Assembly: GCA_037481655.1 (NCBI GenBank)
Contig: JBBFLF010000012.1
Span: 40,245 to 95,516, forward strand
DNA length: 55,272 nucleotides
Source of the DNA: Desulfobaccales bacterium
Lineage (GTDB): Bacteria > Desulfobacterota > Desulfobaccia > Desulfobaccales > 0-14-0-80-60-11
Direction: 5' to 3'
Each line of letters starts with the position of its first letter. The first letter of the stretch is position 1. Of this stretch, positions 4,102 to 52,672 are shown one piece after another. The notes under the pieces are model-generated. The model did no database searches and had not been told where the DNA came from. It saw only the letters and a program-made list of their open reading frames with translations. Made by a program: the position numbers and the translations under genes.

Positions 4102-5238
4102 TCAGGCCCGAGGTTTCTCCGCCAGGAGGCGCTCAATCTCCTCCACGTACCTTTGAATGACGATCCTTTCGTCAAACTCTCGCTCCGCCTTCAGTCTGCC
4201 GTAGCGCCCCATCTCCCTTCGGGCCTCAGGGCCGATTTCGATCATTTTCACCATGGCGGCGGCCAGGGCATTGGCGTCCCTCACCGGCACCATGAAACCG
4301 TTTTTGCCGTCCTCGATCACCTCCCGGCACCCCACCGCGTCGGTGGTGATGACGGGTTTGCCCATTGCCATGGCCTCCAGAACCGACCGGGGCATGCCTT
4401 CCCGGTAGGAGGGGAGCACCACCACGTCGGCCTGGGCAATAAAGGGCCGCACGTCCCGCGTCTCCCGCAGCCAGCGGATCTCTCCCTGCCACTCCCAGGT
4501 CCGGACCTGCCTTTCGGGGACCACCGCCGGGTTTCCCGGGTCCAGGGCCCCCAGAACCTGGAATTCCGCATGTGGGTAGATGCTCTTCACCCGGCCGGCA
4601 GCCGCGGCGAACTCGCCGATTCCCTTGTCCCACAGCAGCCGGCCGATGAAGAGGAAAATCGGCCTGTCCTCCCTGGGGGGGGTTCCAGAGGGCTGCGGCG
4701 AATAATGTCCCAGGTCCACCCCGGACCCGGGCACCCGGCGGACCTTCGAGAATGACACCAGACGCCGGGAGAGAAAGAATTCCTGGTCATCGGGGTTCTG
4801 GAAGAAAACCGCCCGGGGGAAGAGCAAGGCCAGGCGGTAGAGGAGACATGTGAGGTGGTATAGGGGCCCCTTGTTCATCAGGGCATAACCGCCGCCGGTC
4901 ACGGTGCAAAAGGAAGGTATGCCGGCTGCCGCCGCAGCCAGGGACCCGTAAATCACCGGTTTAATGGTGTAATGAAGGACAACATCCGGCCTTCCGGAGC
5001 GATAAGAGCGGAGCAGTTCCAGAAAGAATCTGCCTTCTTCCAAGGGGTTCAGGCCGCCCCGGCGGATATGCCGGAGCGGCCGGCACACCACCCCCATCTC
5101 CCGCACCCCTTCCTCATAGCCGTCAGGGGCGGCCAGGGCCACGACCTCATTTCCCCTGGCCAGAAGGGCCTGCATCAGGCCCCGGCGAAAGTGATAAAGA
5201 TTGACATAAATGCTGGATACAAAAAAGAGGGTGGCCAT
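4102..5238 (-). CDS. GT4 family glycosyltransferase
   Basis: This 378-residue GT-B fold enzyme belongs to family GT4. The N-terminal half contains PDVVLHYTIKPVIYGSLAA, typical of capsule and O-antigen transferases. The C-terminal half contains FLFIGRLLWDKGIGEF and the nucleotide-sugar site REGMPRSVLEAMAMGKPVITT, with the usual E-x7-E acidic pair. It probably adds one hexose or N-acetyl-hexosamine during repeat-unit assembly on the cytoplasmic face. It is the last gene of the minus-strand polysaccharide cluster and starts 5 bases after the polymerase stop. Its GC content is high, unlike the AT-rich polymerase before it. Donor and acceptor cannot be told from sequence. Confidence 0.85.
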   Translation of the reverse strand: MATLFFVSSIYVNLYHFRRGLMQALLARGNEVVALAAPDGYEEGVREMGVVCRPLRHIRRGGLNPLEEGRFFLELLRSYRSGRPDVVLHYTIKPVIYGSLAAAAAGIPSFCTVTGGGYALMNKGPLYHLTCLLYRLALLFPRAVFFQNPDDQEFFLSRRLVSFSKVRRVPGSGVDLGHYSPQPSGTPPREDRPIFLFIGRLLWDKGIGEFAAAAGRVKSIYPHAEFQVLGALDPGNPAVVPERQVRTWEWQGEIRWLRETRDVRPFIAQADVVVLPSYREGMPRSVLEAMAMGKPVITTDAVGCREVIEDGKNGFMVPVRDANALAAAMVKMIEIGPEARREMGRYGRLKAEREFDERIVIQRYVEEIERLLAEKPRA

Positions 5239-5243
5239 TAGGG

Positions 5244-6542
5244 TCAGGGGATAGGGTGCGCCTGTTGAGCCGTCAGCCTCAAGGGAAGCCTGGGCTTCAA
5301 AAGTTCCGGGGCAGTATTTTCCTGCCTTCTTTTCTCCAGCCAGATCATGGCATTGAGAAAGGCCAGGAGGATCCAGAATGAGCGGAACCGTATCCCATCA
5401 TGGCCTATATTGTAGATAATCAAGGCCATTATAACCCAGCCGCCACTTTTTAGTGTTAATGAGTTCCAAAAATATCTTACAAACCAACTTATAAATAATA
5501 AAAAACCTATTATACCATAATTTCTGAAAATACCCATAAACATATTGTGAACTTCCATAACCATTTTACTTTTCCCAAATCCTCTTTGCAATTCTTCTCT
5601 TTCCTTTAAAAGACCAGCACCCTTTCCTGCAACAATTTCAATACCATTTAATGATTTCATGGGCTCGTATATTCTGTCTAAAATACCATCCCTACCATAG
5701 ATCATTTCACTTAATGACCATTGCCTCTTAGGTCGAACTTCAATTTTTTCTTGAAAAATATATGTTGAAAAAAAATAAAAATATAAAAAGCTTATTGATG
5801 TCATAAATAGAACAATTATATTTACTTTAAATAATCTAGCTCTTGCCAATAAATAGAAACCGAAACATATTAATGCAAATATCCCCGCTCTCGACAATGA
5901 AATAAGACCGAAAACAAAAGATATTATTATAAATAAAATATTAATTATATCATATAATAATACTTTTTCATGATTATTATTTAATTCAATTAATAAAATG
6001 CCATATGAACACAAAATTACTGCAAAATAAGCAAGCTGATTAGGATTATTGAAAGACAATATAACACGACCTTCGTCGCTATATCCCTTTACTAAAAAGC
6101 ACCCAAAAATGGACATTATTAAAGCAATATAAATAAAATTTAGATTTTTTCTTTTTTTTAATAAAGAAATGAATATGATTGAAAAAAAATAAAGTATAAA
6201 AAAACCATAAATGATAATTGCACTTGAAAATAAATACCATAAATCTCTTGGATATAATATATAATTTATACCATTTATTAAGCAAACCCATAGAACAAAA
6301 GGAATTAATGGTTTTATTTGCCTTAATATGTCTTCATTTATTTCATCCCGATGTGATAGCGCCCACAAAAAAATAAATAATATCGGTATATCTACTAATT
6401 GATATCCTCCAGAAGGAAAGATGTACATGGGCAATAGAAAAAACACCATGATCAAGAGAGAGCCAAGCAAATATTGCTTCTGAACCTTTATTGTGGTTTC
6501 TGAGGTTATGTATTTTCCTGAATATTGATAAAAGAGACCCAT
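5244..6542 (-). CDS. Wzy-like O-antigen/exopolysaccharide polymerase or ligase
   Basis: The 432-residue product is almost entirely membrane segments (about ten to twelve), with a larger hydrophilic loop around residues 250-320 that includes RPKRQW and YGRDGILDRIYEP. This pattern and the position in the cluster fit the Wzy/O-antigen ligase family, which joins repeat units in the periplasm. Sequence in this family is poorly conserved, so the call rests on topology and context. The start has GAGGT upstream. Most of the gene is very AT-rich, while the last 150 bases return to the GC-rich style of the region; this suggests the gene was acquired and that its 3' end was joined to resident DNA. Confidence 0.7.
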   Translation of the reverse strand: MGLFYQYSGKYITSETTIKVQKQYLLGSLLIMVFFLLPMYIFPSGGYQLVDIPILFIFLWALSHRDEINEDILRQIKPLIPFVLWVCLINGINYILYPRDLWYLFSSAIIIYGFFILYFFSIIFISLLKKRKNLNFIYIALIMSIFGCFLVKGYSDEGRVILSFNNPNQLAYFAVILCSYGILLIELNNNHEKVLLYDIINILFIIISFVFGLISLSRAGIFALICFGFYLLARARLFKVNIIVLFMTSISFLYFYFFSTYIFQEKIEVRPKRQWSLSEMIYGRDGILDRIYEPMKSLNGIEIVAGKGAGLLKEREELQRGFGKSKMVMEVHNMFMGIFRNYGIIGFLLFISWFVRYFWNSLTLKSGGWVIMALIIYNIGHDGIRFRSFWILLAFLNAMIWLEKRRQENTAPELLKPRLPLRLTAQQAHPIP

Positions 6543-14608: not shown

Positions 14609-16180
14609 CTAATAAGGAATGAATTCGGCAACAATACTATGTAAATAATGCGCAAACCCCGCCAGGCGGGCCTGGGCGGTGGGGACGTCCGGGGCGGCCG
14701 GGGTGATGAGGCGGATGAGGGCCCCGTCGGTGCGCCGGCGGGTCAGGCCGTCCCAGGCCATGTAGAACTTGTTCCAGTACTCGCTGGTGAGCCAGCGGCC
14801 CCGCTGCAGATACCAGTAAAATACCACAATGCGGGTGCCCAGCTGCTCCGCCAGAAGATAGTTCACCGGCCGGCCGGGGGCCAGCTCGTAGGTGCCGCTC
14901 TCCAGGAAGCGCCAGCCCGAGGCGATGAGGCACCCCTTGGGGGAATGGACAAACCCCCCCGCCTTTTTCTGGGTCTCGTAGTAGGCGATCCACAGGTTGA
15001 CGGTGCCGTGCCCGGGGTTGACGTAATCCACGTTCAGGTGGGCGTGGGACTGGGTGAGGCGGACCATCTCGGGATCCACGGGGGTGATTTTACCCTGCCA
15101 GGGGCCGAGCTGCAAGGGGAAATGCTCAAAGCCCTGCTTCAGGGGGACCCGCACGGCCTGGGCGGCCCGCTGCACCACCGGGAAGGAGACCAGGAGCAAC
15201 GCCAGGGCCGCGGCCAGGGGCAGGAGAGCCGGCCTGTCCGGGGGCCGGGCGGGGTCGGGGGCCTCCCCAGCGGCCGCCGGCAAGGGAGGGCGGGGGCCGG
15301 CGGCTGCCGGCGAGGGCGGCACCTCAGGGCTCTTCGGTGCGGCAGGGCTCAGGTAATTGAGCAGGGCATTGAGGCCGGCCAGGGCCAGGAGGCAGAAGAG
15401 AAAGATGAGCCAGCCGGAAAAGCCGTGCCAGAAGCCGGTAAGCAGGGCCGGATACAGGGCCATGGCGGCCACCCTCAGGGCATTGGCCAGGATGGCCAGG
15501 GGCACCAGGCTGGCCAGGAGAATGACCGCCTTCCAGAGGCGGCGCTGCCAGAAGTAGCAGAAGATCAGGCCCAGGGCCAGGAGGGGCAGGATATAGCGCA
15601 GGCCGGAGCAGGCCTTGACGATCTGGAGCTGGCGCATCCCCAGGTCCAGGATATTGCCTTGCTGGAAGACCGGCACGCCCAGGAGATGGAGAAAAACAGC
15701 GGCCAGCCGGGAGGAGATAAGCTGCAGGGGGAGGGTGAGCCTGTTGGTGATGAGCTCCGGCAACGGCAGCATAAGGAGGAGAAGAAGCAGAGGGAAGGCC
15801 AGGAGGCGCAGAAGCCTGGGCCCTCCCATCAGGGTGACCAGGCCGGCCAGGGAGACCACGAAGGAGACCCGGGTGGTGTAGAGCTCGGCGGCCAGCTCGG
15901 CGGCCACGTACAGGAAGAGGCCGACGGCCAGCAGGGGGAGGCCCCACCAGGAGGGGCGGGGGGCCAGCTCCCGGATGCGGGGCCTTTTGAGATAAACGAT
16001 GTAGGCGCTCACCAAGGGAAAGAGGAGACCGTAAGAGTAGTCGTCGCTTTGTAACAAAGAGTTGATTAACCTGATAAGGACAGAACCGTAGAGGTAGCTG
16101 ACACCCAGAAATAATAAAGATGCCGCCAGCCAGGTTGAGATAATAATATTATCTCTTTTTTCAGCTTTTTGGGCTAACAT
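14609..16180 (-). CDS. xrtD: Exosortase D fused to an EpsI domain (VPLPA-CTERM type)
   Basis: The 523-residue product has an N-terminal polytopic exosortase domain and a C-terminal periplasmic EpsI domain. The catalytic residues of the family are visible: Cys191 in VKACSGLRY, Arg236 in ANALRVAAM and His252 in FWHGFSGW. The EpsI part, from about residue 330, contains HSPKGCLIASGWRF and YWYLQRGRWL. Exosortases cleave C-terminal sorting tails at the inner membrane. Exosortase D is known to pair with VPLPA-type tails, and four proteins with VPLPG tails lie at 23992-32241. The ATG at 16180 overlaps the preceding gene by 20 bases. The gene is GC-rich between AT-rich neighbours. Confidence 0.9.
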   Translation of the reverse strand: MLAQKAEKRDNIIISTWLAASLLFLGVSYLYGSVLIRLINSLLQSDDYSYGLLFPLVSAYIVYLKRPRIRELAPRPSWWGLPLLAVGLFLYVAAELAAELYTTRVSFVVSLAGLVTLMGGPRLLRLLAFPLLLLLLMLPLPELITNRLTLPLQLISSRLAAVFLHLLGVPVFQQGNILDLGMRQLQIVKACSGLRYILPLLALGLIFCYFWQRRLWKAVILLASLVPLAILANALRVAAMALYPALLTGFWHGFSGWLIFLFCLLALAGLNALLNYLSPAAPKSPEVPPSPAAAGPRPPLPAAAGEAPDPARPPDRPALLPLAAALALLLVSFPVVQRAAQAVRVPLKQGFEHFPLQLGPWQGKITPVDPEMVRLTQSHAHLNVDYVNPGHGTVNLWIAYYETQKKAGGFVHSPKGCLIASGWRFLESGTYELAPGRPVNYLLAEQLGTRIVVFYWYLQRGRWLTSEYWNKFYMAWDGLTRRRTDGALIRLITPAAPDVPTAQARLAGFAHYLHSIVAEFIPY

Positions 16181-17942
16181 TGCACAACTTGGCAATCATA
16201 TCATGACGCTTAATGACACGGGCTGGAACTCCCACAGCAGTACAATAAGGTGGAATATTATGAATAACAACGGTTCCAGCACCAATTATTGAATAAGCTC
16301 CTATTGTTTTCCCAGGTATCACCACTGCTCCAGTTCCTAAAAATGCTCCTTCTTCTACTGTTACATTTCCAGCAAGATTACACCCAGGAGATATCTGAGC
16401 AAAATCATGGATTATATTATCATGATCAATAGTCGCTCCTGTATTAATAATAACGCAAGAACCTAATTTTGTGCTGGAATTTATTATTGCCCCGGGAGCG
16501 ATAAAATTACCACAACCCATTTCTACATTTGATGATATAATAGCAGAAGGGTGAATAGCATTAACAAACAAACCTTTTATTTCTTTATCATTGATATTTT
16601 TTAATAGCTTTTCATAAATCTTACATCTTTCATAATTATTTCCTATGGCAATTATAATCTTGATATTTTTTTGGGATATCAGCTTTAGTACATCTTCTAT
16701 TGTTCCTAAGACAGGTATTCCATTTATTTTATTTCCGAGTATTTTGAAATTATCATCAAAATACCCAATAATAGGCCAACCACTGGCCTGTAGTATATCT
16801 AGACATACCTTACCATGACCAGAGGCTCCTATAATAGCCACTCTATTTTTTTGATATCCATTGTATTTATTTGTAAATCTGTAAATTGGAAAAAATTCTT
16901 TGTAATATTTTTTAATATGCGATTCCTTTATTGAAAGGATATTATATGTTTTTGTATTTGGTATTATATGCCCAGTAAAATATTCTTTTTTATTTAAGGA
17001 AAAAGAAGATTTAAAATAAAATAAGCTATCATTAATATCCACACCACCACCAAGATTTAATGAACTGAATTTATTCCGCTGAAACCATAGAGAACTTTCA
17101 TAAATCAAAAGATTATTAGGTGAAAAATGTTTGTAATCTTCATTGGAACCAGAAAGAAAATAATGACCAAAATCACGTGCAAAAAGAAAAAGGGAAGAAG
17201 CAATTATCCGATCATCCAAAAGGGCATGGACCAAAATGGCCTGGCCCTGGAACAATTTGACCAAATGGTCAAACCAGGGGCGGGAAAAGTAATAGTATTC
17301 CCGGGCCCCCACCCTCTGCATGGTATCGATATAAAGGCGGTGGAAAGTGTCCAAGTGCTCGAAGTTTTCATCCACCAGAATCTTGACGCCGTGCTTCTGG
17401 GCCTTGCGGATTTTGTTGCGGCAGCTGGGGGACATACCCTTCCAGATGGCCTCGGGGCCCTGGGTGAGGTCCATGACCACCACGGGGCTCTGGCGGAAGG
17501 CGGGGATGAAGGGGCGGCAGTAGTCAAAGTTGCCCAGCAGGGGGTGGAAGCGCACCAGCTCGCTCACCACCTGGCGCTCCCGGCAGTAATCCCGCCAGGC
17601 CCGGAAAAAGCCGGTCATGTCCATTCCCGGATGGCTGGCCAGATAACCGCCATAGCCATAGGGGTTGATGATGTCGGTCCACTCCGGATCCACGTCCCGG
17701 AACTGGGGAATATCCCGGATGAACCGCAGATGAAAGGGATAAATGACAAAGCGGTCCGGCGTCTCGTAATAGACGAAACACAGGGCCCGGCCGTCGCCAT
17801 GGAGCTCAAAGAGATAGGCCCACTCGGGGAGATAGAAGACGTCAATCTTCTCCGGGGGGAAGCGATGATAGAGCTCCCGCCATTTCTCCCGCTCGGCGGG
17901 ATGATCGTAGCTCAGGACCTCCCAGCGGGGATAACCGCTCAC
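16161..17942 (-). CDS. FemAB-like N-acyltransferase fused to NeuD/PglD-type acetyltransferase
   Basis: This 593-residue protein joins two enzymes. Residues 1-330 form a FemAB/GNAT-type domain (MSPSCRNKIRKAQKHGVKI, then HLDTFHRLYIDTMQRVG), as found in exosortase clusters. Residues 365-590 form a NeuD/PglD sugar acetyltransferase with RVAIIGASGHGKVCLDIL and a left-handed beta-helix of hexapeptide repeats (GAIINSSTKLGSCVIINTGA, IDHDNIIHDFAQISPG with a likely catalytic His). It starts at a GTG overlapping the aminotransferase stop (GTGA), with GGAGG 7 bases upstream. GC content falls sharply near 17200, inside the FemAB part, so the 3' two-thirds appear acquired. The acetyltransferase half would acylate the 4-amino sugar made by the upstream aminotransferase. 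Confidence 0.85.
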   Translation of the reverse strand: MSGYPRWEVLSYDHPAEREKWRELYHRFPPEKIDVFYLPEWAYLFELHGDGRALCFVYYETPDRFVIYPFHLRFIRDIPQFRDVDPEWTDIINPYGYGGYLASHPGMDMTGFFRAWRDYCRERQVVSELVRFHPLLGNFDYCRPFIPAFRQSPVVVMDLTQGPEAIWKGMSPSCRNKIRKAQKHGVKILVDENFEHLDTFHRLYIDTMQRVGAREYYYFSRPWFDHLVKLFQGQAILVHALLDDRIIASSLFLFARDFGHYFLSGSNEDYKHFSPNNLLIYESSLWFQRNKFSSLNLGGGVDINDSLFYFKSSFSLNKKEYFTGHIIPNTKTYNILSIKESHIKKYYKEFFPIYRFTNKYNGYQKNRVAIIGASGHGKVCLDILQASGWPIIGYFDDNFKILGNKINGIPVLGTIEDVLKLISQKNIKIIIAIGNNYERCKIYEKLLKNINDKEIKGLFVNAIHPSAIISSNVEMGCGNFIAPGAIINSSTKLGSCVIINTGATIDHDNIIHDFAQISPGCNLAGNVTVEEGAFLGTGAVVIPGKTIGAYSIIGAGTVVIHNIPPYCTAVGVPARVIKRHDMIAKLCNVSPKS

Positions 17943-23991: not shown

Positions 23992-24735
23992 TCAGGGGCC
24001 TGCCGGCGGCTCCTTCCGGCGGCGCCGGGCCAGGAGGCCCAGGGCCGCGAGGCCGCTTCCCAGAAGGAGGGCGGTGCCGGGCAGGGGCACGGGGCTCACC
24101 GCCGCCAGCTTGCCCACCACAAAGCTTTCGCTGCCAGTGTTGTTGATGGCCTGGACGTGGAGGCCCACCACCAGATCGCCGGAGTTGAAGGTCTGGTCCG
24201 TCAGCCAGCCGTCGAGGGCTTCCACCACGGAGTTGATATCCTTTCCGGAAGCCAAGGTGAAAACAATGCTCAGGCTTTCGTTGGGGTTGACGCCGTTATC
24301 GCTGACAGGCGGAGTGGATTTGGCGGCAAAGACGACGGAGGCCTCTACGTCCAAGCCTGGAAGAGAGGACGGATTGACTTTTTTGGTGGTGAAAGAAACG
24401 TCACCATCGTAAATGAAGCCCGTGAAAGAAGTGCCGTTGATCCCCAGGACGCCGTCGTAGAAGTAGATGCCGGTGATGGACATAGGGACAGCGCCATCCA
24501 GGTAGAAGGTGAAGGTGACGGTGGTGGAGCCTTCGATGCCGGTGACGTCCATCCGGAGCTGGGTTTCGCCGGCGGAGGCGTTGGCTCCGCTTTTGTCATT
24601 TGTGGTGATGGCGTCGAAGGTGTAGGTATAGGTAATGGCCCGGGCGGGGGCGGCGGCGAACAGGAGCAGCAGGGCCAGGGCCATAGCGGCCGGCAGCGGT
24701 CTCAGTAAGGTTTGCAGGGGTTTGGGGGCGCGCAT
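23992..24735 (-). CDS. VPLPG-CTERM sorted protein
   Basis: The 247-residue product has a signal peptide (MALALLLLFAAAPARA), a beta-rich body with many Thr, Ser and Asn, and a C-terminal sorting tail: VPLPGTALLLGSGLAALGLL followed by RRRRK. This three-part tail (motif, hydrophobic helix, basic cluster) is the recognition signal for exosortase, here presumably exosortase D at 14609. The body has no recognised domain; its pattern is like secreted matrix or adhesin modules. AGGGA lies 10 bases before the ATG. A sigma-54-like element lies 174 bases upstream at 24909. Confidence 0.85.
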   Translation of the reverse strand: MRAPKPLQTLLRPLPAAMALALLLLFAAAPARAITYTYTFDAITTNDKSGANASAGETQLRMDVTGIEGSTTVTFTFYLDGAVPMSITGIYFYDGVLGINGTSFTGFIYDGDVSFTTKKVNPSSLPGLDVEASVVFAAKSTPPVSDNGVNPNESLSIVFTLASGKDINSVVEALDGWLTDQTFNSGDLVVGLHVQAINNTGSESFVVGKLAAVSPVPLPGTALLLGSGLAALGLLARRRRKEPPAGP

Positions 24736-24985: not shown

Positions 24986-25558
24986 TTAACGCCGGCGCTG
25001 CTGGCGGCGCCAGACCAAGGCCAGCCCCAGGAGGCCGCTCCCCAGCAGCAGGGCGGAGCCGGGGAGGGGGACGGGGGGTGGAGCAGCTGTTTCCACAATA
25101 AAGGCGTCGCCAGAAAATATAAAATCAACTAAATCACCAGAAGATACCGTTATGAGATAGTTTGTTTCACCGCCTTCAATATCATATTGGTAAATATAAC
25201 TGCCATTATAATAAAACGCTATATAAAATTGAGGAGAATTTCCTAATGATAGATCTTTATCCCCTGATTTATCTCCTGCATACCATATACCATTTTCATT
25301 TGTAAAATGTATATATGAAAATTTTTGTGTGGTATCCATTATTTTCAAATAAGAATTAAGGTCGTTAATATTCGTAAAAATGTATAAAATAAAATCAAAT
25401 GAATTGTCAGCTGGCTTGCCCATTCTCAAATAATTAACATTCGTTGCCTCATCCGCATCAAATTGCCATAAATAATATATTGTATCAGCTTTTACAGGGT
25501 TTATCGTGGTAACTATGGAAATAAAAATTAAAATTAATAAATAACACATCTTTTTCAT
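24986..25558 (-). CDS. VPLPG-CTERM sorted protein with AT-rich body
   Basis: The 190-residue product has a signal peptide (MKKMCYLLILIFISIVTT), a Tyr/Asn/Asp-rich body and the tail VPLPGSALLLGSGLLGLALVW plus RRQQRRR. The body matches no family I know. The coding sequence for the signal and body is very AT-rich, but the last about 100 bases encoding the tail are GC-rich and close to the tail of the other sorted proteins. This suggests a foreign body fused to a resident sorting tail. AAGGAG precedes the ATG at 25558. Upstream lie a sigma-54-like element and a three-site palindrome array. Confidence 0.85.
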   Translation of the reverse strand: MKKMCYLLILIFISIVTTINPVKADTIYYLWQFDADEATNVNYLRMGKPADNSFDFILYIFTNINDLNSYLKIMDTTQKFSYIHFTNENGIWYAGDKSGDKDLSLGNSPQFYIAFYYNGSYIYQYDIEGGETNYLITVSSGDLVDFIFSGDAFIVETAAPPPVPLPGSALLLGSGLLGLALVWRRQQRRR

Positions 25559-25756: not shown

Positions 25757-25772
25757 TTCAAAATCCGTGCCG
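25757..25772 (-). promoter_or_regulatory. Sigma-54-like promoter of the 24986 gene
   Basis: The minus-strand sequence CGGCACGGATTTTGAA matches GGCACG of the -24 box and TTG of the -12 box with correct spacing; the -12 C is replaced by A. It lies about 200 bases before the gene and about 115 bases after the last GTTC-N8-GAAC site. Confidence 0.5.
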
Positions 25773-25887: not shown

Positions 25888-25990
25888 GTTCAAAAGGGTG
25901 AACGCTTTAGGGGAATCCGGGCGTATCCCTTTGAAATTTTGTAGAAATTATTTGTTCTAAAATGTGAACATAAGATTCAAAAACTTGAAC
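25888..25990 (-). promoter_or_regulatory. Three-site GTTC-N8-GAAC array upstream of the 24986 gene
   Basis: Palindromes lie at 25888-25903, 25954-25969 and 25975-25990, starts 66 and 21 bases apart. The two sites nearer the gene have both half-sites intact (GTTC and GAAC); the outermost has GAAT as its second half in the direction of the gene. The arrangement mirrors the array at 28618. It fits upstream activator sites of a sigma-54 enhancer-binding protein. The rest of the spacer to 26042 shows nothing else. Confidence 0.7.
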
Positions 25991-26042
25991 AAAAGTCAGG
26001 TCCTGGGCGCCGGGCCGCGGCCGAATGCCCGGGCCGGGAGCC

Positions 26043-28457
26043 TCAGGAGCGGCCCTCCAGCTCCTGGAGGAGCTTCTCCGCCTCGGGGCGCTGGGGGAAC
26101 TCCCCGGGCGCGGCCAGGGCCTGGCGCAGGGCTTCCCGGGCCGGCTCCTTCTCCCCCAGTTTCGCCAGGCAGACGCCCCGGTGGAACTGCAGCACCGGGT
26201 GGCGGGGGGAGAGGGCCACGGCCCGCTCCAGATACGGCCGGGCCTGGGCATAGTCGCCCCGGCGGCAGAGCACCCAGCCCAGGGTATCCAGCACCCGGGG
26301 GTCGCCGGGGTTGTCCTCCAGCACCTCCCGGGCCAGCTTTTCCGCCCGGGTGAGGGTGTCGGCCTCGGGGCGGGCCTCGGCCAGGACGTAGGCCAGGTTG
26401 TTTTTCACCACCGCGGCCAGGCCCGGATGGAGCTCCCGGGCGAGGAGGCCCTCATAGAGGGGCAGGGCGGCGGTGAGGTCCCCCAGGCGCTCGTAGGCCT
26501 GGGCCAGGGCCAGGGGGCGGAAGACGGGGGCCTGGGGGTCGGCGACGGCCTGCAGGAGGCGGTCCCGGGCGGCGGCGTGGCTCAGGAGGCCCTCATAGGC
26601 CCGGGCCAGCAAGCCGATGGGCTGGGGGTCCCGGGGGTTGAGGGTGAGGGCCCGCTCCAGAGCCTGGGCCGCGGCCTCGTACTGCTTCTGGGAGAGGAGG
26701 ATTTCCCCCAGGATCTGGTGGAGCTCGTCGTTGTCGGGGTCGGCGGCCAGGGCGGCCCGCACCCGCTCCACGGCCTTGGGGGCCTGGCCCTGCTCGGTCA
26801 GCAAGGCGGCCAACAGCCGCAAGGCGGGGTAGGCCCGGGGGTTTTCCTTGAGGGCCCGCTCCAGATGGGGGAGGGCGGCCTGGGCCTGGCCCTGCTGGCG
26901 CAGGAAGAGGGCGAGCTTCAGGTAGCCCTGGGGGTTGTGGGGCTCCAGGGCGATCATCTTGCGGAAGGCGGCCTGGGCCTCGGCGGCCTGGCCTTTGGCG
27001 GCGTAGGCGTCCCCCAGGTAGGCCAGGGCGGTGAGGTCGTGCTCCCGGGCCCGGAGGTGTTCCTTGAGGAGGCTGATGAGGCCGTCGTAGTCCTGCTTTT
27101 CCAGGTAGGAGCCGTAGAGGAAGGCCTTGGCCTCGCCGTAGTCGGGCTTGAGGGCCAGGGCCTTTTTGGCGGCCTCCCGGGCCAGGGTGTCCTCCTTCTG
27201 GAGCTGGTGGGCCCGGGCCAGAAGCAGCCAGTGCTCCGGGTTCTGGGGCTGGTCCTGGGTGAGGAGGCGGAAGTTGCCCACTGCGGTGAGGCCGTCGTTG
27301 GTCTGCAGGGCCAGGAGGCCCCCCACCTTGAGGGCGTTTACGTCCCGGGGGTTGGCCTTGAGGACTTCTTTCACCAGGGTCTGGGCCTCCTCCGGGCGGC
27401 CCTGGGTGAGGAGGAGGGCGGCCAGCTCGCCTTTGGCCTTGAGGCCCTCGGGGCCGGTGGGGTCGGCGGCGGCCACCTCCTGAAGGAGGCGCTCCGCCTG
27501 GCCGAGGCGGCGCTGCCGGAGCTGAAAGTGGGCCAGGGCCTGCTTGGCGGCCAGATTCTTCGGGCGGGCGGCGGCAAAGTCAGTGAGGAGCTTCTCGCCC
27601 TCGGCGGGCCGGCCCCGGTCGGCCAGGAAGTGGGCCAGGGCGGCCACGTGGCCGAGGTTGTCGGGCTCCAGGTCCTTTTTGGCCCTAAGGGCCGCCTCGG
27701 CCTGGTCCCACTCCTGGCGGCTCAGGTGGAAGCGGCTGAGCTCCTCCAGGACCTGGGCGTTCTGGGGGGCGAGCTCCCGGGCCCGGTTCAGCAGGCGGCG
27801 GGCGGTCTCGGGGTCTTTGAGCTCGTTGGCCAGGCGGGCCCGGGTGAAATAGAGGGGCAGGGCCCGGGGGTTGGCGCTCAGGCCCTCATCCAGCAGCCGG
27901 GCGGCCTCCTGGGGGCGCTTCTCCTGGGTGAGGATGGCGGAGGCCAAAAGCCAGGCCTCCAACTTGTCGGGCTTCTGGCGGCGCAGGTCGGCCAGCAGCT
28001 TAAGGGCCTCCTCGGGCTGGCGGCGGGCCACGGCCACCCCGGCCTGGAGCATGCGGGCCTCGGGGTTGTCGGGCTCCCGGTCCAGCACCATTTTGGCCCG
28101 GGCCTCGGCGTCCTCCAGGCGGCGGCCGGCCAGAAGGAGGTTCCCCAGGAGGAGCTGGGCCTCGGTGAGGCCGGGGTCCAGCTCCACCGCCCGGGTGACG
28201 GCGGCGAAGGCCTCCCGGGGGTTGTTGAGCTGCATTTCGGTCTTGGCCAGCCACAGGTGGGCCGGGGCGTGCTTGGGGTCGATCTGCAGGGCGTTTTTGA
28301 AATGGAGGCGGGCGGCGATGAAGTCCTTGTTCTCGTAGGCCGCCTGGCCCCGGGAGAGGAACTGGTCCCGCTTCTGCTCCAGGGTGGTGCAGGCGGAGAG
28401 GGTGCAAAGGAGGAGGGCCAGAAAGGCCCGGGTAAGCCAGGGAAGATGCGCGCGCAT
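26043..28457 (-). CDS. prsT: TPR lipoprotein of the exosortase system (PrsT family)
   Basis: The 804-residue product is a lipoprotein (LLLCTLSAC lipobox, Cys23) followed by about 20 tetratricopeptide repeats, seen as recurring A..L..A...P motifs such as GAYLGDA-like helix pairs and NPRDPQPIGLLARAYE. Length and build fit the PEP-CTERM-system TPR lipoprotein PrsT (about 900 residues), thought to assist polysaccharide secretion at the outer membrane or periplasm. The ATG at 28457 gives the lipobox; an in-frame start at 28484 is possible. It sits between two sorted-protein genes. The large open frame on the opposite strand is a composition artefact. Confidence 0.85.
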   Translation of the reverse strand: MRAHLPWLTRAFLALLLCTLSACTTLEQKRDQFLSRGQAAYENKDFIAARLHFKNALQIDPKHAPAHLWLAKTEMQLNNPREAFAAVTRAVELDPGLTEAQLLLGNLLLAGRRLEDAEARAKMVLDREPDNPEARMLQAGVAVARRQPEEALKLLADLRRQKPDKLEAWLLASAILTQEKRPQEAARLLDEGLSANPRALPLYFTRARLANELKDPETARRLLNRARELAPQNAQVLEELSRFHLSRQEWDQAEAALRAKKDLEPDNLGHVAALAHFLADRGRPAEGEKLLTDFAAARPKNLAAKQALAHFQLRQRRLGQAERLLQEVAAADPTGPEGLKAKGELAALLLTQGRPEEAQTLVKEVLKANPRDVNALKVGGLLALQTNDGLTAVGNFRLLTQDQPQNPEHWLLLARAHQLQKEDTLAREAAKKALALKPDYGEAKAFLYGSYLEKQDYDGLISLLKEHLRAREHDLTALAYLGDAYAAKGQAAEAQAAFRKMIALEPHNPQGYLKLALFLRQQGQAQAALPHLERALKENPRAYPALRLLAALLTEQGQAPKAVERVRAALAADPDNDELHQILGEILLSQKQYEAAAQALERALTLNPRDPQPIGLLARAYEGLLSHAAARDRLLQAVADPQAPVFRPLALAQAYERLGDLTAALPLYEGLLARELHPGLAAVVKNNLAYVLAEARPEADTLTRAEKLAREVLEDNPGDPRVLDTLGWVLCRRGDYAQARPYLERAVALSPRHPVLQFHRGVCLAKLGEKEPAREALRQALAAPGEFPQRPEAEKLLQELEGRS

Positions 28458-28617
28458 GGTGAAAGCCTCGCTGCCCGGGGGCAAAAGGGCCCGCCGGGGA
28501 GTGCCGCCGTGAGGAGGCGGGGGTGCCCTCTGGCACCTGGGCGCATTATGGCACAGAAGGGGGCGGCGTGGGAAGGGGGATGGAGACGGCTCCGGAGGGC
28601 CCCCCGGGCAAAAAAAT

Positions 28618-28720
28618 GTTCAAAAAACGGGATGGAAGGTTCGGAAAAATGAACATTAAGTTTTGCAGGGATCTTCACAAGTTAGCGGGCCGGGGGCGGC
28701 AAGTGTTCAGGAAGCGGAAC
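28618..28720 (+). promoter_or_regulatory. Three-site GTTC-N8-GAAC array upstream of the 28979 gene
   Basis: Sites lie at 28618-28633 (second half degenerate, GGAT), 28639-28654 and 28705-28720, starts 21 and 66 bases apart. Read toward the plus-strand gene, the order of spacings and the degenerate outermost half-site are the same as in the array at 25888 read toward its own gene. It lies about 73 bases before a sigma-54-like promoter. It also lies upstream of prsT, which it might serve as well. Confidence 0.7.
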
Positions 28721-28792: not shown

Positions 28793-28808
28793 CGGCCTGG
28801 TTCTTGCA
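28793..28808 (+). promoter_or_regulatory. Sigma-54-like promoter of the 28979 gene
   Basis: CGGCCTGGTTCTTGCA matches GGC, the G of the -24 box and TTGCA of the -12 box with exact sigma-54 spacing. It lies 170 bases before the start codon and 73 bases past the last palindrome site, a usual enhancer distance. Confidence 0.6.
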
Positions 28809-28978
28809 TGAGGTGGGAGGGAGCCCCAGGCGAGAAAAAAATGCACTAAGGGCAAAAAATCAGGGATTCCCCGATGGACAGGGGGCCCTGGTGATGGCAT
28901 GGTAAAGGCCGCGATAGTTGTGAACCAAAAGGGCTGTGCCGCACGGCACGGGAGTTTAGTCCGGAAAGGCTGAGAGCC

Positions 28979-30910
28979 ATGGCACGGGGTCAGAGGGGCA
29001 AGGCAGTGGTTTTGGGGGTCCTGGCGGCGCTGCTGGTGGCACTGGCGGCGGGGAGCGCCGGGGCGGATAGTTATAAATGGACTGGCAAGGCTGGGGGGAC
29101 TAACTCAGGAATATGGGACCATATTAATAATTGGGACCCAAAAGTTATTCCAAACTCTTATTCCGCCCAGGCCATCATTATTTTACAAGATACCAGTAAA
29201 TATCCTATTTCGCTGAGCACCACGATTTTTCTAGGAGGGAGTATTGGTGACACGTATGGTGATAATGCCCTCTACATCGGGCCGAATGCCGGGGACGCTA
29301 GTGGAGTAGCCCTGACCATCTCCGGCACGTTGGGGATGCAGGGGAATATCAGCAATGCCAAGACTATCGTTATTTCCGGAACGCTCCAAAACGACTCGGG
29401 GAAAAGCGGGACACCTCAGCCTACCATAACAAATTACTCCATCAGTTCGCCCAGCGGGTCTACTGGCACCATCAGCCTGCAGGGGGGCACCATCGGGACG
29501 CTCTCTGGCGGGGGCTGGATCTTCAACCAGGCGGTCTCGGGCTATGGCACCATCTCGGCGCCGGTGACCAACAATTCCACCATCACCGCCAGCGGCGGCA
29601 CTTTGACATTAAGAGACTATACTTTCAGTGGCGGCACAATCAACCCTGGCAGCGCTTCCATTTCCCTGAGAAATGCCACCCTGAAAGACACTACTCTTGG
29701 ATCTGGGACTGTCAATACATATACTGGCACCACCAACACCTTCACCGGCACCGTCGGCTCCAGCGCCACACTGGGGATTGTCAGCGGCAGCACCTTGAAT
29801 GTCAACGGCACCCTGAACCAGAGCAACACCCTCACCAATTCCGGGACCCTGGGCCTCTCGGGGACCCTCAAGCAGACCGGGAACATCACCAATAATGGGA
29901 CGTTCAATATCCTGGGCACCCTGAACCAGGGAGGGACAAACACCAGCAGTTACAGCATCGGGGGCACCGGCAGCCTCAGCCTGCAGGGGGGCACCATCGG
30001 GACGGTCAACGGCGGGAGCTGGACCTTCAACCAGGCGGTCTCAGGCTGGGGCACCATCTCGGCGCCGGTGGTGAACAACGCCACGGTGACCCTGAGCAGC
30101 AATTCGGCCATCAGCAACACCTTCACCAATAACAAGACTGTCAATCTCTCCGGAACTCCAACGATTTCCGGGGCTTTCACCAACAACAGCGGCGGCACCC
30201 TGAACGTCACCGGCGGGACCACCACCATTTCCGGAAACTTCACCAACCAGGGGACGGTGAGCGCCAACTCCGGGACCACGGTGACGGTGACGGGGACAAA
30301 TAGTAAAAAGGGAAGTTTCACCAGCAGCGGCGGGACCCAGTCTTTTGGGAATTTAAAGGTTGAGCAATACGGCTATCTGGTGGGAGGAACCGGCACCTTC
30401 ACCGTCAGCGGGAATTTTCTGAATTACAGCACGCAGAACAACCAACTAACTGGCTGGAATACGACGCAAGCCACCCTGGCCTTCACCTCCGGGTCGCATG
30501 AGATGTATTTGGCGGGGGTGGATAAAGGACAGGTGACTTACGGCTCCACTGCCCCGTATTCCACGTACGCCGACAACTTTGCCTGGGGGACCCTGAGCAT
30601 TGCGCCGGGCGGCAGCCTGGTCCTGAAGGACAGTTTCCCCGATGATGGGAATACCGCAGCCCTGTATGTAGGGGTGATCAGCGGCCTGGTTTTTGACAAA
30701 GATACTGGGCTGATCACCAATATCAGCGGGGATTTCAATATTTATTATGATCCATACAAAAATGACTTCGGCTTCAAGACCTTTAAACTTGCTTCCGGGA
30801 CGGGCAAAGTTATGTCCGCGGTGGTGCCGCTGCCGGGGAGCGTCTGGCTGCTGGGGAGCGGGTTGGTGGGCCTGCTCCTGGTCTGCCGGCGCCGGCGGCG
30901 GCGCATCTGA
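28979..30910 (+). CDS. Large repetitive VPLPG-CTERM sorted protein (adhesin-like)
   Basis: The 643-residue product has a signal peptide (VVLGVLAALLVALAAGSAGA), a long Thr/Ser/Gly/Asn-rich body and the tail VPLPGSVWLLGSGLVGLLLV plus RRRRRR. The body has repeated beta-strand motifs (NTFTGTV, SGTLNVNG, NNSGGTLNV) like autotransporter or beta-helix adhesins. One unit of about 34 residues (SLQGGTIGT..., FNQAVSG.GTISAPV) occurs twice, 168 residues apart. It is likely an exosortase substrate that becomes part of the extracellular matrix. GGAAAGG lies 9 bases before the ATG. A terminator follows. Confidence 0.85.
   Translation: MARGQRGKAVVLGVLAALLVALAAGSAGADSYKWTGKAGGTNSGIWDHINNWDPKVIPNSYSAQAIIILQDTSKYPISLSTTIFLGGSIGDTYGDNALYIGPNAGDASGVALTISGTLGMQGNISNAKTIVISGTLQNDSGKSGTPQPTITNYSISSPSGSTGTISLQGGTIGTLSGGGWIFNQAVSGYGTISAPVTNNSTITASGGTLTLRDYTFSGGTINPGSASISLRNATLKDTTLGSGTVNTYTGTTNTFTGTVGSSATLGIVSGSTLNVNGTLNQSNTLTNSGTLGLSGTLKQTGNITNNGTFNILGTLNQGGTNTSSYSIGGTGSLSLQGGTIGTVNGGSWTFNQAVSGWGTISAPVVNNATVTLSSNSAISNTFTNNKTVNLSGTPTISGAFTNNSGGTLNVTGGTTTISGNFTNQGTVSANSGTTVTVTGTNSKKGSFTSSGGTQSFGNLKVEQYGYLVGGTGTFTVSGNFLNYSTQNNQLTGWNTTQATLAFTSGSHEMYLAGVDKGQVTYGSTAPYSTYADNFAWGTLSIAPGGSLVLKDSFPDDGNTAALYVGVISGLVFDKDTGLITNISGDFNIYYDPYKNDFGFKTFKLASGTGKVMSAVVPLPGSVWLLGSGLVGLLLVCRRRRRRI
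29473..30079 (+). repeat. In-frame direct repeat in the 28979 gene
   Basis: About 103 bases at 29473-29575 recur at 29977-30079, exactly 504 bases (168 codons) apart. The encoded segments differ at a few positions, such as GYGT versus GWGT. This points to a recent internal duplication of a beta-helix unit. Confidence 0.7.
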
Positions 30911-30939
30911 GGGCCTGAGGCCTTTCCGGATAGCCCTCG

Positions 30940-30972
30940 GGGCCCCCTTTGCGGGGGCCCTCTTTTTTTTTC
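30940..30972 (+). terminator. Rho-independent terminator after the 28979 gene
   Basis: GGGCCCCC pairs with GGGGGCCC around a 5-base loop, followed by a T-rich run (TCTTTTTTTTTCC). It lies 29 bases past the stop. Confidence 0.9.
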
Positions 30973-31430: not shown

Positions 31431-31572
31431 GGGCCTCAGGTTTTCCCTGATGCCTCAGTAATTAACCTGACTATCTTCCCGGTTTGACGGGCGGATGGCA
31501 GGTGGCAGAGGCCTCAGGGCGCCGGGGGCGGCGTCTTCCGGCTGCAGGAGCAGGAGACCCAGGAGGGGAGCC

Positions 31573-32241
31573 ATGAGAGTCGCAAGAGTGTTGCTGCTGG
31601 CCAGCGCTTTGCTGCTGGGGGGGTGGTCGGAGAGTTACGGGGACACCGTTTGGCAATATACTCATTTCACAAAATTGGATGAATATGCTGTTTATACAAA
31701 TGTTAATATTTTATCATATTCGGGCACATTAGAAGTTGGAAATTACACTTATGGAATTATTTTTTATAACAATTATAATAATTATGAACCATATTTAGCA
31801 ATACCTGAAAATATTAATGTTAATGTTAATACATATAATGCTTATAATTATATGGATTATAATATAAACGGTATTAATTACAAATTATATTTATCTGAAA
31901 GCACGGAGTTTGAAGCAATTAAGACGCCAAATGCTTATAATATATATCCTGATAATTATTATGCTTTTGGATTGACATGGAATTATTATTCTGATGGTAT
32001 AACACCATTTAATATATCTATTCCTTTTGTTTTAATTGGAAGTATAAGTGGTGAATTTGAAGGTAGTGATAAGGATAATTACGTTGTATTATTTATACAG
32101 AAAGATGGTGCGGAACCCTTTTTCCCAGCAGGTATGCAAGTAGGGGATCCACCGGCGGTGCCGCTGCCGGGGACGGCCCTCCTTCTGGGGAGCGGGCTGG
32201 CGGGGCTGGCGCTGATAAGCCGGCGGCTGAGGCGGCGCTGA
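31573..32241 (+). CDS. VPLPG-CTERM sorted protein, Tyr/Asn-rich, AT-rich body
   Basis: The 222-residue product has a signal peptide (VLLLASALLLGGWSES), a body extremely rich in Tyr, Asn and Ile, and the tail VPLPGTALLLGSGLAGLALI plus RRLRRR. The ends are GC-rich (signal 31573-31640 and tail from about 32135), while the body is strongly AT-rich, with sharp changes at both boundaries. This is a cassette pattern: a foreign body between resident secretion and sorting signals. AGGAGG with GGAG lies before the ATG at 31573. The body matches no known family. A strong terminator follows 160 bases later. Confidence 0.82.
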   Translation: MRVARVLLLASALLLGGWSESYGDTVWQYTHFTKLDEYAVYTNVNILSYSGTLEVGNYTYGIIFYNNYNNYEPYLAIPENINVNVNTYNAYNYMDYNINGINYKLYLSESTEFEAIKTPNAYNIYPDNYYAFGLTWNYYSDGITPFNISIPFVLIGSISGEFEGSDKDNYVVLFIQKDGAEPFFPAGMQVGDPPAVPLPGTALLLGSGLAGLALISRRLRRR

Positions 32242-47293: not shown

Positions 47294-47352
47294 AGGAGGC
47301 GGATTTGGGGGCGGGGTGGAGTGCCGCCCCGAGGGGGAGAAAAGGACGGCCC

Positions 47353-48612
47353 ATGAGGATCAAGGACTTTTTCGGCAGGTGGTGGAAACCGGAGAAGGAG
47401 CCGGTGGAGCGGGAACTGGGGGCGGTGAGCCTGGCGGACCGCTGGAGCACTTATCCCAGCGCAGGCCTCACCCCAGGCAAGCTGGCGGCCATCTTCCAGG
47501 AGGCGGACCAAGGGGCGGTGACCCTGCAGATGGAGCTTTTTCAGGAGATGGAGGAGAAAGACGCCCATCTGGCGGCGCTCCTGCAGACCCGGAAGCTGGC
47601 GGTGCTGAGTCTGGATTACGAGGTGCTGCCCTACGCCAAGACGCCGGAGGACGAACATATCGCCCGGGTGGTGGGGGAGCTGGTGTACGGCATTCCCCGG
47701 CTGGAGGAGGCTTTCCTGGATCTGCTGGATGCCATCGGCAAGGGGTTTGCGGTGGTGGAGGTGCAGTGGGAACGCATCGGCAGGCAGGCCCGGGTGGCGG
47801 AACTGCGGTGGATTCCGCAGAAGCGGATCACCTTTGTCAATGATCTCATTCCCCGGCTGCTGACGGACAAGGAGCCCTGGAAAGGGGAGGAGATTCCGCC
47901 CTGGCGCATCATCTACCACCGCTACAAGGCCCGAAGCGGCTATGACACCCGGGCGGGGGTGCTCCGGGTGGTGGGCTACATGTACCTCCTCAAGAACTTT
48001 GCCCTGAAGGATTGGGCGGCTTTCAACGAGGTCTTCGGGATGCCTTTGCGCCTGGGGAAGTATGATCCGGCGGCCACGCCGGCGGACCGGGAAAGCCTCA
48101 TCCAGGCCATCCGCTCTTTGGGGACGGATGCGGCGGGCATCATCAGCAAGAACACGGAGATTGAGTTTGTGGAGGCCACCAGCCGTCTGAGCGGCAGCCA
48201 CAACCCCTACCAGGTGCTGGCGGAGTTCTGCAACCGGGAGATGTCCAAGGCGATTTTGGGGCAGACCCTGACCACGGACACCGCCGGGGCCACGGGGACC
48301 TACGCCGCGGCCAAGGTGCACGCCCAGGTGCGGCGGGACCTGGTGGAGGCGGACGCCCAGGCGTTGGCCCAGACGCTGCGGGAGCAGCTGCTGCGGCCCT
48401 TAGTGGGCTTCCACTTCGGCTGGGAGAAGCCAGTGCCGTATTTCCGCTTCCGCTACGAGGAGGAGGAGGACTTGAAGACGCTTTCCGAGGTGTACCGCAA
48501 TCTGGCGGCTCTGGGGATGCCGCTCAGCGTGGAGCATGTGGCGGAACGCTTCGCCCTGCCGGTGCCGGCTGCGGGGGAGAAACTGATTGACGGAAAGGAG
48601 GTGAAAGGATGA
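47353..48612 (+). CDS. Mu gp29-like portal protein (DUF935)
   Basis: The 419-residue product matches the Mu gp29 portal family: AALLQTRKLAVLSLDYEVLP, GFAVVEVQWE, ITFVNDLIPRLL, and AFNEVFGMPLRLGKYD, then SKNTEIEFVEA. The portal is the 12-fold ring for DNA entry at one head vertex. AAAGGA precedes the ATG at 47353; a longer frame from 47305 is not favoured. Its stop overlaps the next start (ATGA). The expected next gene in Mu, gpF/gp30 (minor head protein), is absent. Confidence 0.9.
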   Translation: MRIKDFFGRWWKPEKEPVERELGAVSLADRWSTYPSAGLTPGKLAAIFQEADQGAVTLQMELFQEMEEKDAHLAALLQTRKLAVLSLDYEVLPYAKTPEDEHIARVVGELVYGIPRLEEAFLDLLDAIGKGFAVVEVQWERIGRQARVAELRWIPQKRITFVNDLIPRLLTDKEPWKGEEIPPWRIIYHRYKARSGYDTRAGVLRVVGYMYLLKNFALKDWAAFNEVFGMPLRLGKYDPAATPADRESLIQAIRSLGTDAAGIISKNTEIEFVEATSRLSGSHNPYQVLAEFCNREMSKAILGQTLTTDTAGATGTYAAAKVHAQVRRDLVEADAQALAQTLREQLLRPLVGFHFGWEKPVPYFRFRYEEEEDLKTLSEVYRNLAALGMPLSVEHVAERFALPVPAAGEKLIDGKEVKG

Positions 48613-48956
48613 AGCGTTGGGGCCAACGGTGGGGGGTGGCGCTGGCCGCCACCCTGCTGGTGGGGGGGTGCTGTGCCCATCCCGGGGTCTTCGGGCAGCT
48701 GGAGCAGTCCTTAAAGACGGTGCAGGCCTGCTATGAGCCGCTGGTGCAGAGCTTGACGGAGGAGCCGGTGAACGAGAAGGTGCGGGCGGCCATCGTGGCG
48801 GCGGACACCACCCTGCTGCTTCTGGCGCAGTTGCAGGAGCAGTGGTGTCCGGCCCTCACCGCGGTGGAGCAGGCCAAGCTGTCGGCGGAAGCAGTGCAGA
48901 AGCTGGCCGAGGAAGCCGGGGTGGCAACGGAGTCGAATTCGCACAGCGGGCAGTAA
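48609..48956 (+). CDS. Phage-encoded small lipoprotein, unknown
   Basis: The 115-residue product has a lipobox (AATLLVGGC, Cys about residue 21) after a short signal, then two helical segments with leucine and alanine heptad character (LEQSLKTVQACYEPLV; ALTAVEQAKLSAEAVQKL) and several Cys. The start overlaps the portal stop by 4 bases, so translation is coupled. I recognise no family. It sits where Mu-like phages have a minor head gene; a lipoprotein there is unexpected. A superinfection or lysis role is possible but not shown. Confidence 0.7.
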   Translation: MKRWGQRWGVALAATLLVGGCCAHPGVFGQLEQSLKTVQACYEPLVQSLTEEPVNEKVRAAIVAADTTLLLLAQLQEQWCPALTAVEQAKLSAEAVQKLAEEAGVATESNSHSGQ

Positions 48957-48968
48957 ACGAGGAGCGGC

Positions 48969-49940
48969 ATGGAGAGGGAACTGATCTTGACATTGGGAGG
49001 CGAGGAGCTGCCGGAGTGGATCCGGGTGCTCCCCGTGGGCCGGGTGGAGCTGGCGGATGAGCGGCCGCCCTTCGAGGTGGACCAGGAGTCGCTGGCGGCC
49101 ATGGTGGCGGCCTTTGAGGCCCGGGGGGTGGACCTGGTGGTGGATTACGAGCACCAGTCCCTGACCGGAGAGCGGGCGCCGGCGGCGGGATGGATCAAGG
49201 AGCTCAAGGCGGAAGCCGACGGGCTGTGGGCCCGGGTGGAGTGGACCCCGCAGGCGCAGGAGTATCTGCGGAACCGGGAATACCGCTACTTTTCGCCGGT
49301 GCTGAAGCTGGACCCGGAGAGCCGCAGGCCGGTGGCCCTCCTGCAGGTGGCCCTGACCAATGTGCCGGCCATGAAGAGCCTGGAGCCTTTGGTGGCCCGC
49401 TACGGTTGGGAGGCGGCCAAATCCGAGCTGGCGGCCCGGCTGGAATTGGGCGCCGAGGCCAAGGAAGAGGAGCTCTGGCTGCGGGCCCGGCAGGTGTGGG
49501 GCGAGATTCTGGCGCTCACCGGTTTGGGGCCGGAGGCGACGGTGACGGAGCTGAAGGCGGAGATTGAGGCCCTGAAAACGGCCCGGGGCCGGGTGGCCGC
49601 GTTGGAGGCGGAAGTGACGGCCCTGAAAGAGCAGGTGAAAGAAGCGGCGGTGGCCTGGGAAGTGGAAGAGGCGCTCAGGGCCGGGAAGATCACCCCGGCT
49701 CAGGAGACCTGGGCGCTGGACTACTGCCGCCGGGATCTGGAGGGCTTTCGGGCCTTTGTGGCGGCGGCGCCCAAGGTGGTGCCGTTGGGGGAGAAGTTTT
49801 CCCTGAGCCGGGAAGAGAAGCCCCTCACCGGCCGGCTGCAGCCGCAGGAGCTGGCGGTATGCCGGGCGCTCAACCTTGCGCCGGAAGAGTTTCTGAAGGC
49901 CAAAGAGGCCTCAACAGCGAAAAAAACCACGGGGAGGTAA
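48969..49940 (+). CDS. Mu-like prophage I protein (head protease/scaffold), right copy
   Basis: The 323-residue product is a second I-family protein. The block GVDLVVDYEHQSLTGERAPAAGWIKEL and the following EYRYFSPVLKL and LLQVALTNVPAMK match the left copy at 1198 closely. The second half is a charged coiled coil (VTELKAEIEALKTARGRVAALEAEV), the scaffold part. It would process the prohead, in which gpT is the coat. GAGGAG precedes the ATG. Confidence 0.87.
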   Translation: MERELILTLGGEELPEWIRVLPVGRVELADERPPFEVDQESLAAMVAAFEARGVDLVVDYEHQSLTGERAPAAGWIKELKAEADGLWARVEWTPQAQEYLRNREYRYFSPVLKLDPESRRPVALLQVALTNVPAMKSLEPLVARYGWEAAKSELAARLELGAEAKEEELWLRARQVWGEILALTGLGPEATVTELKAEIEALKTARGRVAALEAEVTALKEQVKEAAVAWEVEEALRAGKITPAQETWALDYCRRDLEGFRAFVAAAPKVVPLGEKFSLSREEKPLTGRLQPQELAVCRALNLAPEEFLKAKEASTAKKTTGR

Positions 49941-49946
49941 CAGGGA

Positions 49947-50354
49947 ATGGCGGCTTTGACTCAGGACCGGGCGACGCCCTACCGGGAAGGCATCGAGATC
50001 GACTTTCCGGTGGCGGCGAATGCCAAAATCTTTGCGGGCTCGTTGGTGTGCGCCAATGCCTCGGGATATGCGGTCCCGGCCTCGGACACCGCCGGGCTGA
50101 AGTTCCTGGGGGTGGCCCTGGAGCGGGCGGACAACACCGGCGGGGCCAACGGCGCCAAAGTGGTGCGCTTGAGAAGGACCGGGGTGTTCGAGTTCAACGC
50201 GGCCAGCATCACCCAAGCCATGGTGGGGGACCCCATGTACGTCAAGGACGACAACACCTTTGACGATGCCGCCGGGTGCACCAACGACATCAAGGTGGGG
50301 GTGCTGGTGAAGTACGTGAGCGACACCAAGGGCTGGATCGACATCAGCAGATAA
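49947..50354 (+). CDS. Capsid decoration-type protein (DUF2190-like)
   Basis: The 135-residue product has the pattern of the DUF2190 family of capsid cement proteins: IDFPVAANAKIFAGSLVCANASGYAVPA, FLGVALERADNTGG and VGVLVKYV. It sits between the protease and major capsid genes, where Mu-like heads often encode a stabilising protein. The left head pair lacks it. GGAGG precedes the ATG. Confidence 0.72.
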   Translation: MAALTQDRATPYREGIEIDFPVAANAKIFAGSLVCANASGYAVPASDTAGLKFLGVALERADNTGGANGAKVVRLRRTGVFEFNAASITQAMVGDPMYVKDDNTFDDAAGCTNDIKVGVLVKYVSDTKGWIDISR

Positions 50355-50370
50355 GGAGGGGAGGCAGACC

Positions 50371-51267: not shown

Positions 51268-51317
51268 GGAAGACACGGTCCGGGGGTCTGAAAAGGCCCC
51301 CGGCTGGAGGAGCAGAG

Positions 51318-51659: not shown

Positions 51660-51727
51660 CCGGAGAACCTGGGGCCCTGGCCGGCAGCCAGGGTCCCCAG
51701 GGAAGCGGGGGTTCAGGGGGGATGGCG

Positions 51728-51889: not shown

Positions 51890-51893
51890 GGCC

Positions 51894-52157: not shown

Positions 52158-52202
52158 GGCGGGCAGGATGCCACCTCTGCGTGTCAGGGGGGAGGTTAAG
52201 AG

Positions 52203-52605: not shown

Positions 52606-52672
52606 GGCACCGAGCCTCGGGGCGTTAATGCCAGGTACAGAGCTCGGGGCCAGGAAGGAAAGGGGTGGCGTT

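Follow-up and report, generated by a model that had tools for sequence, protein, structure and literature searches.

Two palindrome arrays upstream of VPLPG-CTERM genes in a Desulfobaccales genome as probable binding sites of a sigma-54 enhancer-binding activator

Two genes for secreted, VPLPG-tailed proteins of a Desulfobaccales bacterium are each preceded by three copies of the palindrome GTTC-N8-GAAC in the same geometry, which raises the question of what reads these sites and whether it is the regulator already known from PEP-CTERM systems. We analysed the 55,272-nucleotide stretch that contains them (the window) within its 2.87 Mb genome (G000), together with the other two members of the genus examined, G001 and G002. 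G002 is a sister species, represented by a metagenome-assembled genome (record CALEAV01). The locus contains the following features.

14609 to 16195, minus strand: exosortase XrtD, the cognate sorting enzyme of VPLPA-type tails (TIGR04152, 410.4 vs 400 bits)
23992 to 24735, minus strand: second VPLPG-CTERM gene, downstream of gene A and possibly in the same operon
24986 to 25558, minus strand: gene A, a 190-residue secreted protein with a VPLPG-CTERM sorting tail
25888 to 25903, minus strand: array A, promoter-proximal site GTTCACCCTTTTGAAC; perfect in G002
25954 to 25969, minus strand: array A, middle site GTTCACATTTTAGAAC; degenerate in G002 (ATTCACTTGTTGGCAC), spacing unchanged
25975 to 25990, minus strand: array A, outermost site GTTCAAGTTTTTGAAT, read toward gene A; G002 counterpart GTCAAGAATTTTGAAC, position kept
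26043 to 28457, minus strand: PrsT-like TPR lipoprotein, between the two arrays (TIGR02917, 352.9 bits vs a cut-off of 312.2)
28618 to 28633, plus strand: array B, outermost site GTTCAAAAAACGGGAT; identical in G002
28639 to 28654, plus strand: array B, middle site GTTCGGAAAAATGAAC; identical in G002
28705 to 28720, plus strand: array B, promoter-proximal site GTTCAGGAAGCGGAAC; GTTCAAAAAACGGAAC in G002
28979 to 30910, plus strand: gene B, a 643-residue repetitive secreted protein with the C-terminal end VPLPGSVWLLGSGLVGLLLVCRRRRRRI and a VPLPG-CTERM tail
30939 to 30970, plus strand: strong intrinsic-terminator-like hairpin 3' of gene B

A PEP-CTERM-type ATPase is also encoded in the window, and XrtD coexists in G000 with five VPLPG-type tails, two of which score over the TIGR03370 cut-off and the rest below it. 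One further VPLPG gene lies beside pheT (31495 to 32241) and carries no array; it is syntenic in G001 (L161, near 5112-5212), at a contig end. The absence of PrsT and XrtD from G001 had been considered as a phyletic clue, which is weakened because this gene sits where the G001 contig ends, so that the assembly may just not include the locus. Mu-like prophage head genes (gpT, portal, I protein, gp36) are found at both window ends (154-1086, minus strand; 47305-53092, plus strand), with the polysaccharide and sorting locus between the two groups. Upstream of gene B, a hairpin block (ATCAGGGATTCC..GAT) that follows an A run (28859-28875) is conserved in G002 and resembles a terminator on the minus strand. 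No RNA family matched anywhere in the window, spacers included.

All six palindromes were re-located at the coordinates given in the original prediction, and its account of their arrangement proved accurate. Read toward its VPLPG-CTERM gene, on the minus strand for array A and on the plus strand for array B, each array runs from the outer site over 21 bp to the middle site and over a further 66 bp to the inner site, and in both the second half-site is spoiled solely in the outermost copy. The sites share a fuller consensus of 18 bp, TGTTCA-N6-TGAACA. The start codons lie well beyond the inner sites, at about 330 bp for gene A and about 260 bp for gene B. Paired palindromes at a helical spacing well upstream, a trait of upstream activating sequences that we tested for, are present, with the 21 bp spacing in all arrays.

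The arrays are real and non-random. Exact single GTTC-N8-GAAC sites number 31 in the genome, with no excess over background, and those outside the arrays lie nearly all within coding frames. Pairs are another matter: exact pairs at 66 bp occur solely at arrays A and B (the next best has two mismatches), as do pairs at 21 bp with at most two mismatches, and 20,000 sequences simulated from a dinucleotide model of each spacer never gave two exact sites. When TGTTCA-N6-TGAACA was allowed up to two mismatches, eight matches were obtained in the window against 0.64 expected, five of them within the arrays. Outside the sites, the two arrays agree at 17 of 55 bases (p ~0.12), no better than shuffles, so that a recent copying of the spacer fails to explain the common geometry. 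The original prediction had called this repetition unlikely by chance, which these counts and the conservation described below bear out. Its suggestion that such arrays would mark sorted-protein genes throughout the genome held in part: paired arrays occur solely at VPLPG genes, but single sites have no such link and the fifth VPLPG gene, on another contig (C17), has no site at all.

The three-site pattern was looked for in 148 relatives and recovered in G002 alone, apart from two chance-like matches with three mismatches. There synteny is kept (SLT gene, two VPLPG genes, array A, PrsT-like gene, array B, gene B), and each of the four arrays of the two species has spacings of exactly 21 and 66 bp. 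The core of array B keeps 24 of 24 bases in G002, against 38 of 55 outside the sites (Fisher p 0.0009); for array A the figures are 19 of 24 and 32 of 55 (p 0.06), its lengths and inner site being retained and its middle and outer sites decayed. Gene B of G002 itself (L056, ~5911-5990) is interrupted by a stop some 30 codons in, which looks like a frameshift or an error in the assembly. Relatives from other genera have no array near their PrsT- and XrtD-bearing loci, and a search of genomic and viral collections for homologues of the PrsT-like protein returned just G002 itself and remote TPR proteins.

Sigma-54-like elements were scored with a simple consensus weighting of our own (TGGCACG-N4-TTGCW), for which the sole reference was shuffles of the sequence in question. 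Two candidates lie downstream of the arrays.

25757 to 25772, minus strand: sigma-54-like element CGGCACGGATTTTGAA, 115 bp downstream of array A
28793 to 28808, plus strand: weak sigma-54-like candidate CGGCCTGGTTCTTGCA, 72 bp downstream of array B

The array A element has its counterpart in G002, TGGCACGGATGTTGAT, 114 bp downstream of the array. Taken alone it scores P 0.13 in G000 and P 0.015 in G002; its position is conserved, and in both species it has the form of a TGGCACGGAT-N-TTGA-like element (TGGCACG-N4-TTGA), imperfect at -12, where GA replaces the usual GC. At array B the candidate scores P 0.12 in G000 and 0.79 in G002, where its -12 half is lost, and no convincing -24/-12 promoter was found downstream of this array in either species.

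A second locus also links the motif to sigma-54. The best intergenic match to TGTTCA-N6-TGAACA found elsewhere in the genome is at position 12573 of contig C1, with a partner 75 bp away, upstream of a conserved gene:

2863 to 4371 of L082 (G000, contig C1), minus strand: 502-residue multi-membrane protein, with the palindrome pair upstream

The protein has no family match; it may be part of a surface-protein or polysaccharide pathway. Its gene has two palindromes upstream in all three genus members, 75, 76 and 75 bp apart in G000, G001 and G002, respectively. Nothing in these spacers could be aligned by blastn, yet the palindrome pair is kept, and such pairs were reproduced in none of 3000 shuffles in any of the three genomes. 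Downstream of the pair, the best sigma-54 element is TGGCCCAGCCTTTGCA in G000 (P 0.0025 against shuffles) and TGGTGCGGCCCTTGCA in G001 (P 0.005); none is recognisable in G002. The pair thus stands above sigma-54 promoters in two species, a link between motif and sigma-54 that does not depend on the window.

We consider it probable, from the sequence patterns above, that the arrays are three-site upstream activating sequences for a sigma-54 enhancer-binding activator that also controls the C1 gene. The original prediction had read them as upstream sites for one such activator, and the geometry, the distance to the genes, the conservation in G002 and the C1 locus all fit this reading. On this model the activator is dimeric. 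Its dimers would bind at the 21-bp pair, where a separation of two helical turns puts both sites on the same face of the DNA; a third site, located 66 bp closer to the gene, would help to hold the oligomer and to loop it to RNA polymerase-RpoN. The polymerase would sit at a -24/-12 promoter some 70-120 bp further on, where the sorted-protein gene would be switched on; the same activator would act on the conserved multi-membrane protein gene on C1. We infer protein binding, the identity of the protein as an enhancer-binding protein, activation and RpoN dependence. Counted against this explanation are the weak array B promoter, the GA at -12 of array A, the unrecognisable C1 promoter of G002, the lack of a regulator gene nearby, the C17 gene with a good sigma-54-like element and no palindromes, the absence of the motif from most VPLPG genes in the family, and the absence from the ortholog in one relative (G017) of the sites present in another of the same family (G004).

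The strongest rival, which we regard as possible but doubtful, is that the protein recognising the arrays comes from a different regulator family (a one-component repressor or activator, say) and exerts cooperative or looping control over sigma-70 promoters through the three sites. A palindrome alone names no family, sigma-70-like matches are present in the region, and array B offers no firm sigma-54 promoter. What weighs the other way is distance: the sites lie 250-330 bp from the start codons, far for sigma-70 control, and the 260-330 bp measured at genes B and A are a better fit to sigma-54 looping. Sigma-54 elements also follow the palindrome pair, both at C1 (two species) and in G004.

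If a sigma-54 activator is responsible, its gene should be sought among those of G000, which encodes RpoN (449.5 bits, over the cut-off) and about 18 enhancer-binding proteins, none of them in the window or on its contig. About 13 are common to G000, G001 and G002. The C1 sites are found in all three species, and the regulator is therefore expected among these, unless it is of another kind; it is probably one of these roughly 13 unassigned proteins. One enhancer-binding protein gene (L036, on contig C18) had been picked as a candidate because it is present in G000 and G002 and absent from G001. It was rejected on two grounds: the palindrome shared by its operon, which is of the metal-resistance (ZraP-like) kind, is TCGACATTTTCGTCGA, and G001 conserves the C1 sites although it does not have this gene. 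Operons of this kind, with a ZraP-like protein, a kinase and an enhancer-binding protein (L125 1560-5183, L126 909-4517), carry the conserved TCGACATTTTCGTCGA upstream in two species.

The original prediction had pointed to PrsK/PrsR with RpoN, the known regulator type of PEP-CTERM systems, and this part is not supported: there is no PrsR over the cut-off, the TTTACA box is absent, and no such regulator lies on the contig. No protein in the three genus genomes passed the PrsR cut-off (TIGR02915), the best G000 match reaching 442.7 vs 502.6 bits. That match is NtrX-like and scores higher as NtrX, NtrC and AtoC, and the remaining G000 matches score higher as AtoC or NtrC. PrsK (TIGR02916) was found in none of 22 family genomes at E 1e-60, in a search that scored at most 32 candidates per genome and in which no positive control registered. 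The A, B and C1 spacers are free of both TTTACA and TGTAAA. The sites might still belong to a divergent PrsR, as the PrsT-like protein, the PEP-CTERM ATPase and a layout of motif plus sigma-54 promoter resembling the published one would suggest; against the absences just listed, we think this very improbable.

We give next to no credence to the idea that the TPR gene belongs to a mobile segment bounded by the mirrored arrays, each acting as a cluster of transposase sites (Mu/Tn7-like): the inverted arrays do flank a single 2.4 kb gene, with Mu-like prophage genes at both window ends, but each site is two-fold symmetric, unlike transposase end sites, no transposase lies inside, the arrangement is fixed in G002, and the palindrome also precedes an unrelated gene in three species. 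That short palindromes clustered here by chance is just as remote, for although single sites are at background level genome-wide, exact pairs occur in these spacers alone, are kept in a second species and were never reproduced in 20,000 shuffles.

How far the sigma-54 activator reading extends can be judged from other sorted-protein genes. The fifth VPLPG gene of G000 (C17, L043, upstream of 967) has a good sigma-54-like element, AGGCATGGCCATTGCA (P 0.005), and no GTTC palindromes upstream. In G004, one VPLPA gene is preceded by a nearly perfect sigma-54 promoter, TGGCACCTAAATTGCA, with TGTTCAAAGAGCTAAACA about 230 bp upstream of it and a second, degenerate site exactly 21 bp on; the G017 ortholog has neither palindrome. 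One VPVPA gene of a further genome (G007) has TGTTCATATTTTTGAACA upstream, with an assembly gap in between. A relaxed form, TGTTYA-N6-TRAACA, is in excess at these loci, which is only suggestive as the form was noticed post hoc, once they had been inspected. Most VPLPG genes in the family are without the motif, and it is accordingly a rule of this genus at most. Three VPLPA-CTERM genes in G017 and G004 (L130, L146, L155) are preceded by c-di-GMP-I-GGC riboswitches (RF03167, 64-69 bits), and some sorted proteins in a neighbouring genus are thus tied to c-di-GMP instead.

The literature that we found links the sigma-54 control of surface proteins sorted by exosortases to PrsR-type response regulators and one kind of box. 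A different box without a PrsR over the cut-off would, if true, mean that the link between sigma-54 and sorted proteins has been rebuilt with another activator. We would put at about even the proposition that this genus controls its VPLPG proteins, together with the C1 protein, by a non-PrsR sigma-54 activator with its own box and a fixed 21/66 array, and that enhancer-binding regulators of more than one kind have been taken up by exosortase systems. The analysis narrows the regulators to a small set that can be tested and points to a candidate for a new partner, the gene of the C1 membrane protein; the fixed 21/66 geometry also offers a compact, natural setting in which to examine how spacing is used by enhancer-binding proteins. 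TyrR-type boxes, TGTAAA-N6-TTTACA, are read by the Fis-type helix-turn-helix of an enhancer-binding-like protein. The sites described here share their TGT-N12-ACA layout and differ in the inner half-site bases, a likeness that serves as a lead only.

The closest published system is the PEP-CTERM cis-regulatory region of Haft et al. 2006 (PMC1569441), attributed to PrsR/PrsK, in which an activator motif (motif 1, 17 nt, ending in TTTACA) precedes a sigma-54 motif (motif 2) by about 63 bp (range 32-92). Both systems have sorted-protein genes with long upstream regions, an activator motif, sometimes repeated, above a sigma-54-like element, and a PrsT-like TPR protein. Here, in contrast, the box is the 18 bp TGTTCA-N6-TGAACA rather than a 17 bp motif ending in TTTACA, three sites are set at 21 and 66 bp with 115 bp to the gene A element, and no PrsR over the cut-off and no PrsK was found. 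In Aquincola tertiaricarbonis, pepA is an RpoN-dependent PEP-CTERM gene beside prsT with a mapped promoter (PMC9850573); the present locus is alike in having sorted-protein genes near a prsT-like gene, with probable sigma-54 control and an upstream enhancer-like sequence, whereas its promoter and RpoN dependence are predicted and its regulator differs. DVUA0057 of Desulfovibrio vulgaris is a sigma-54 response regulator that binds upstream of PEP-CTERM genes (PMC3333781, PMC4641369), a likeness to the arrangement proposed here. Sigma-54 control of PEP-CTERM genes was thus already known, and what is likely to be new here is the box and its 21/66 array.
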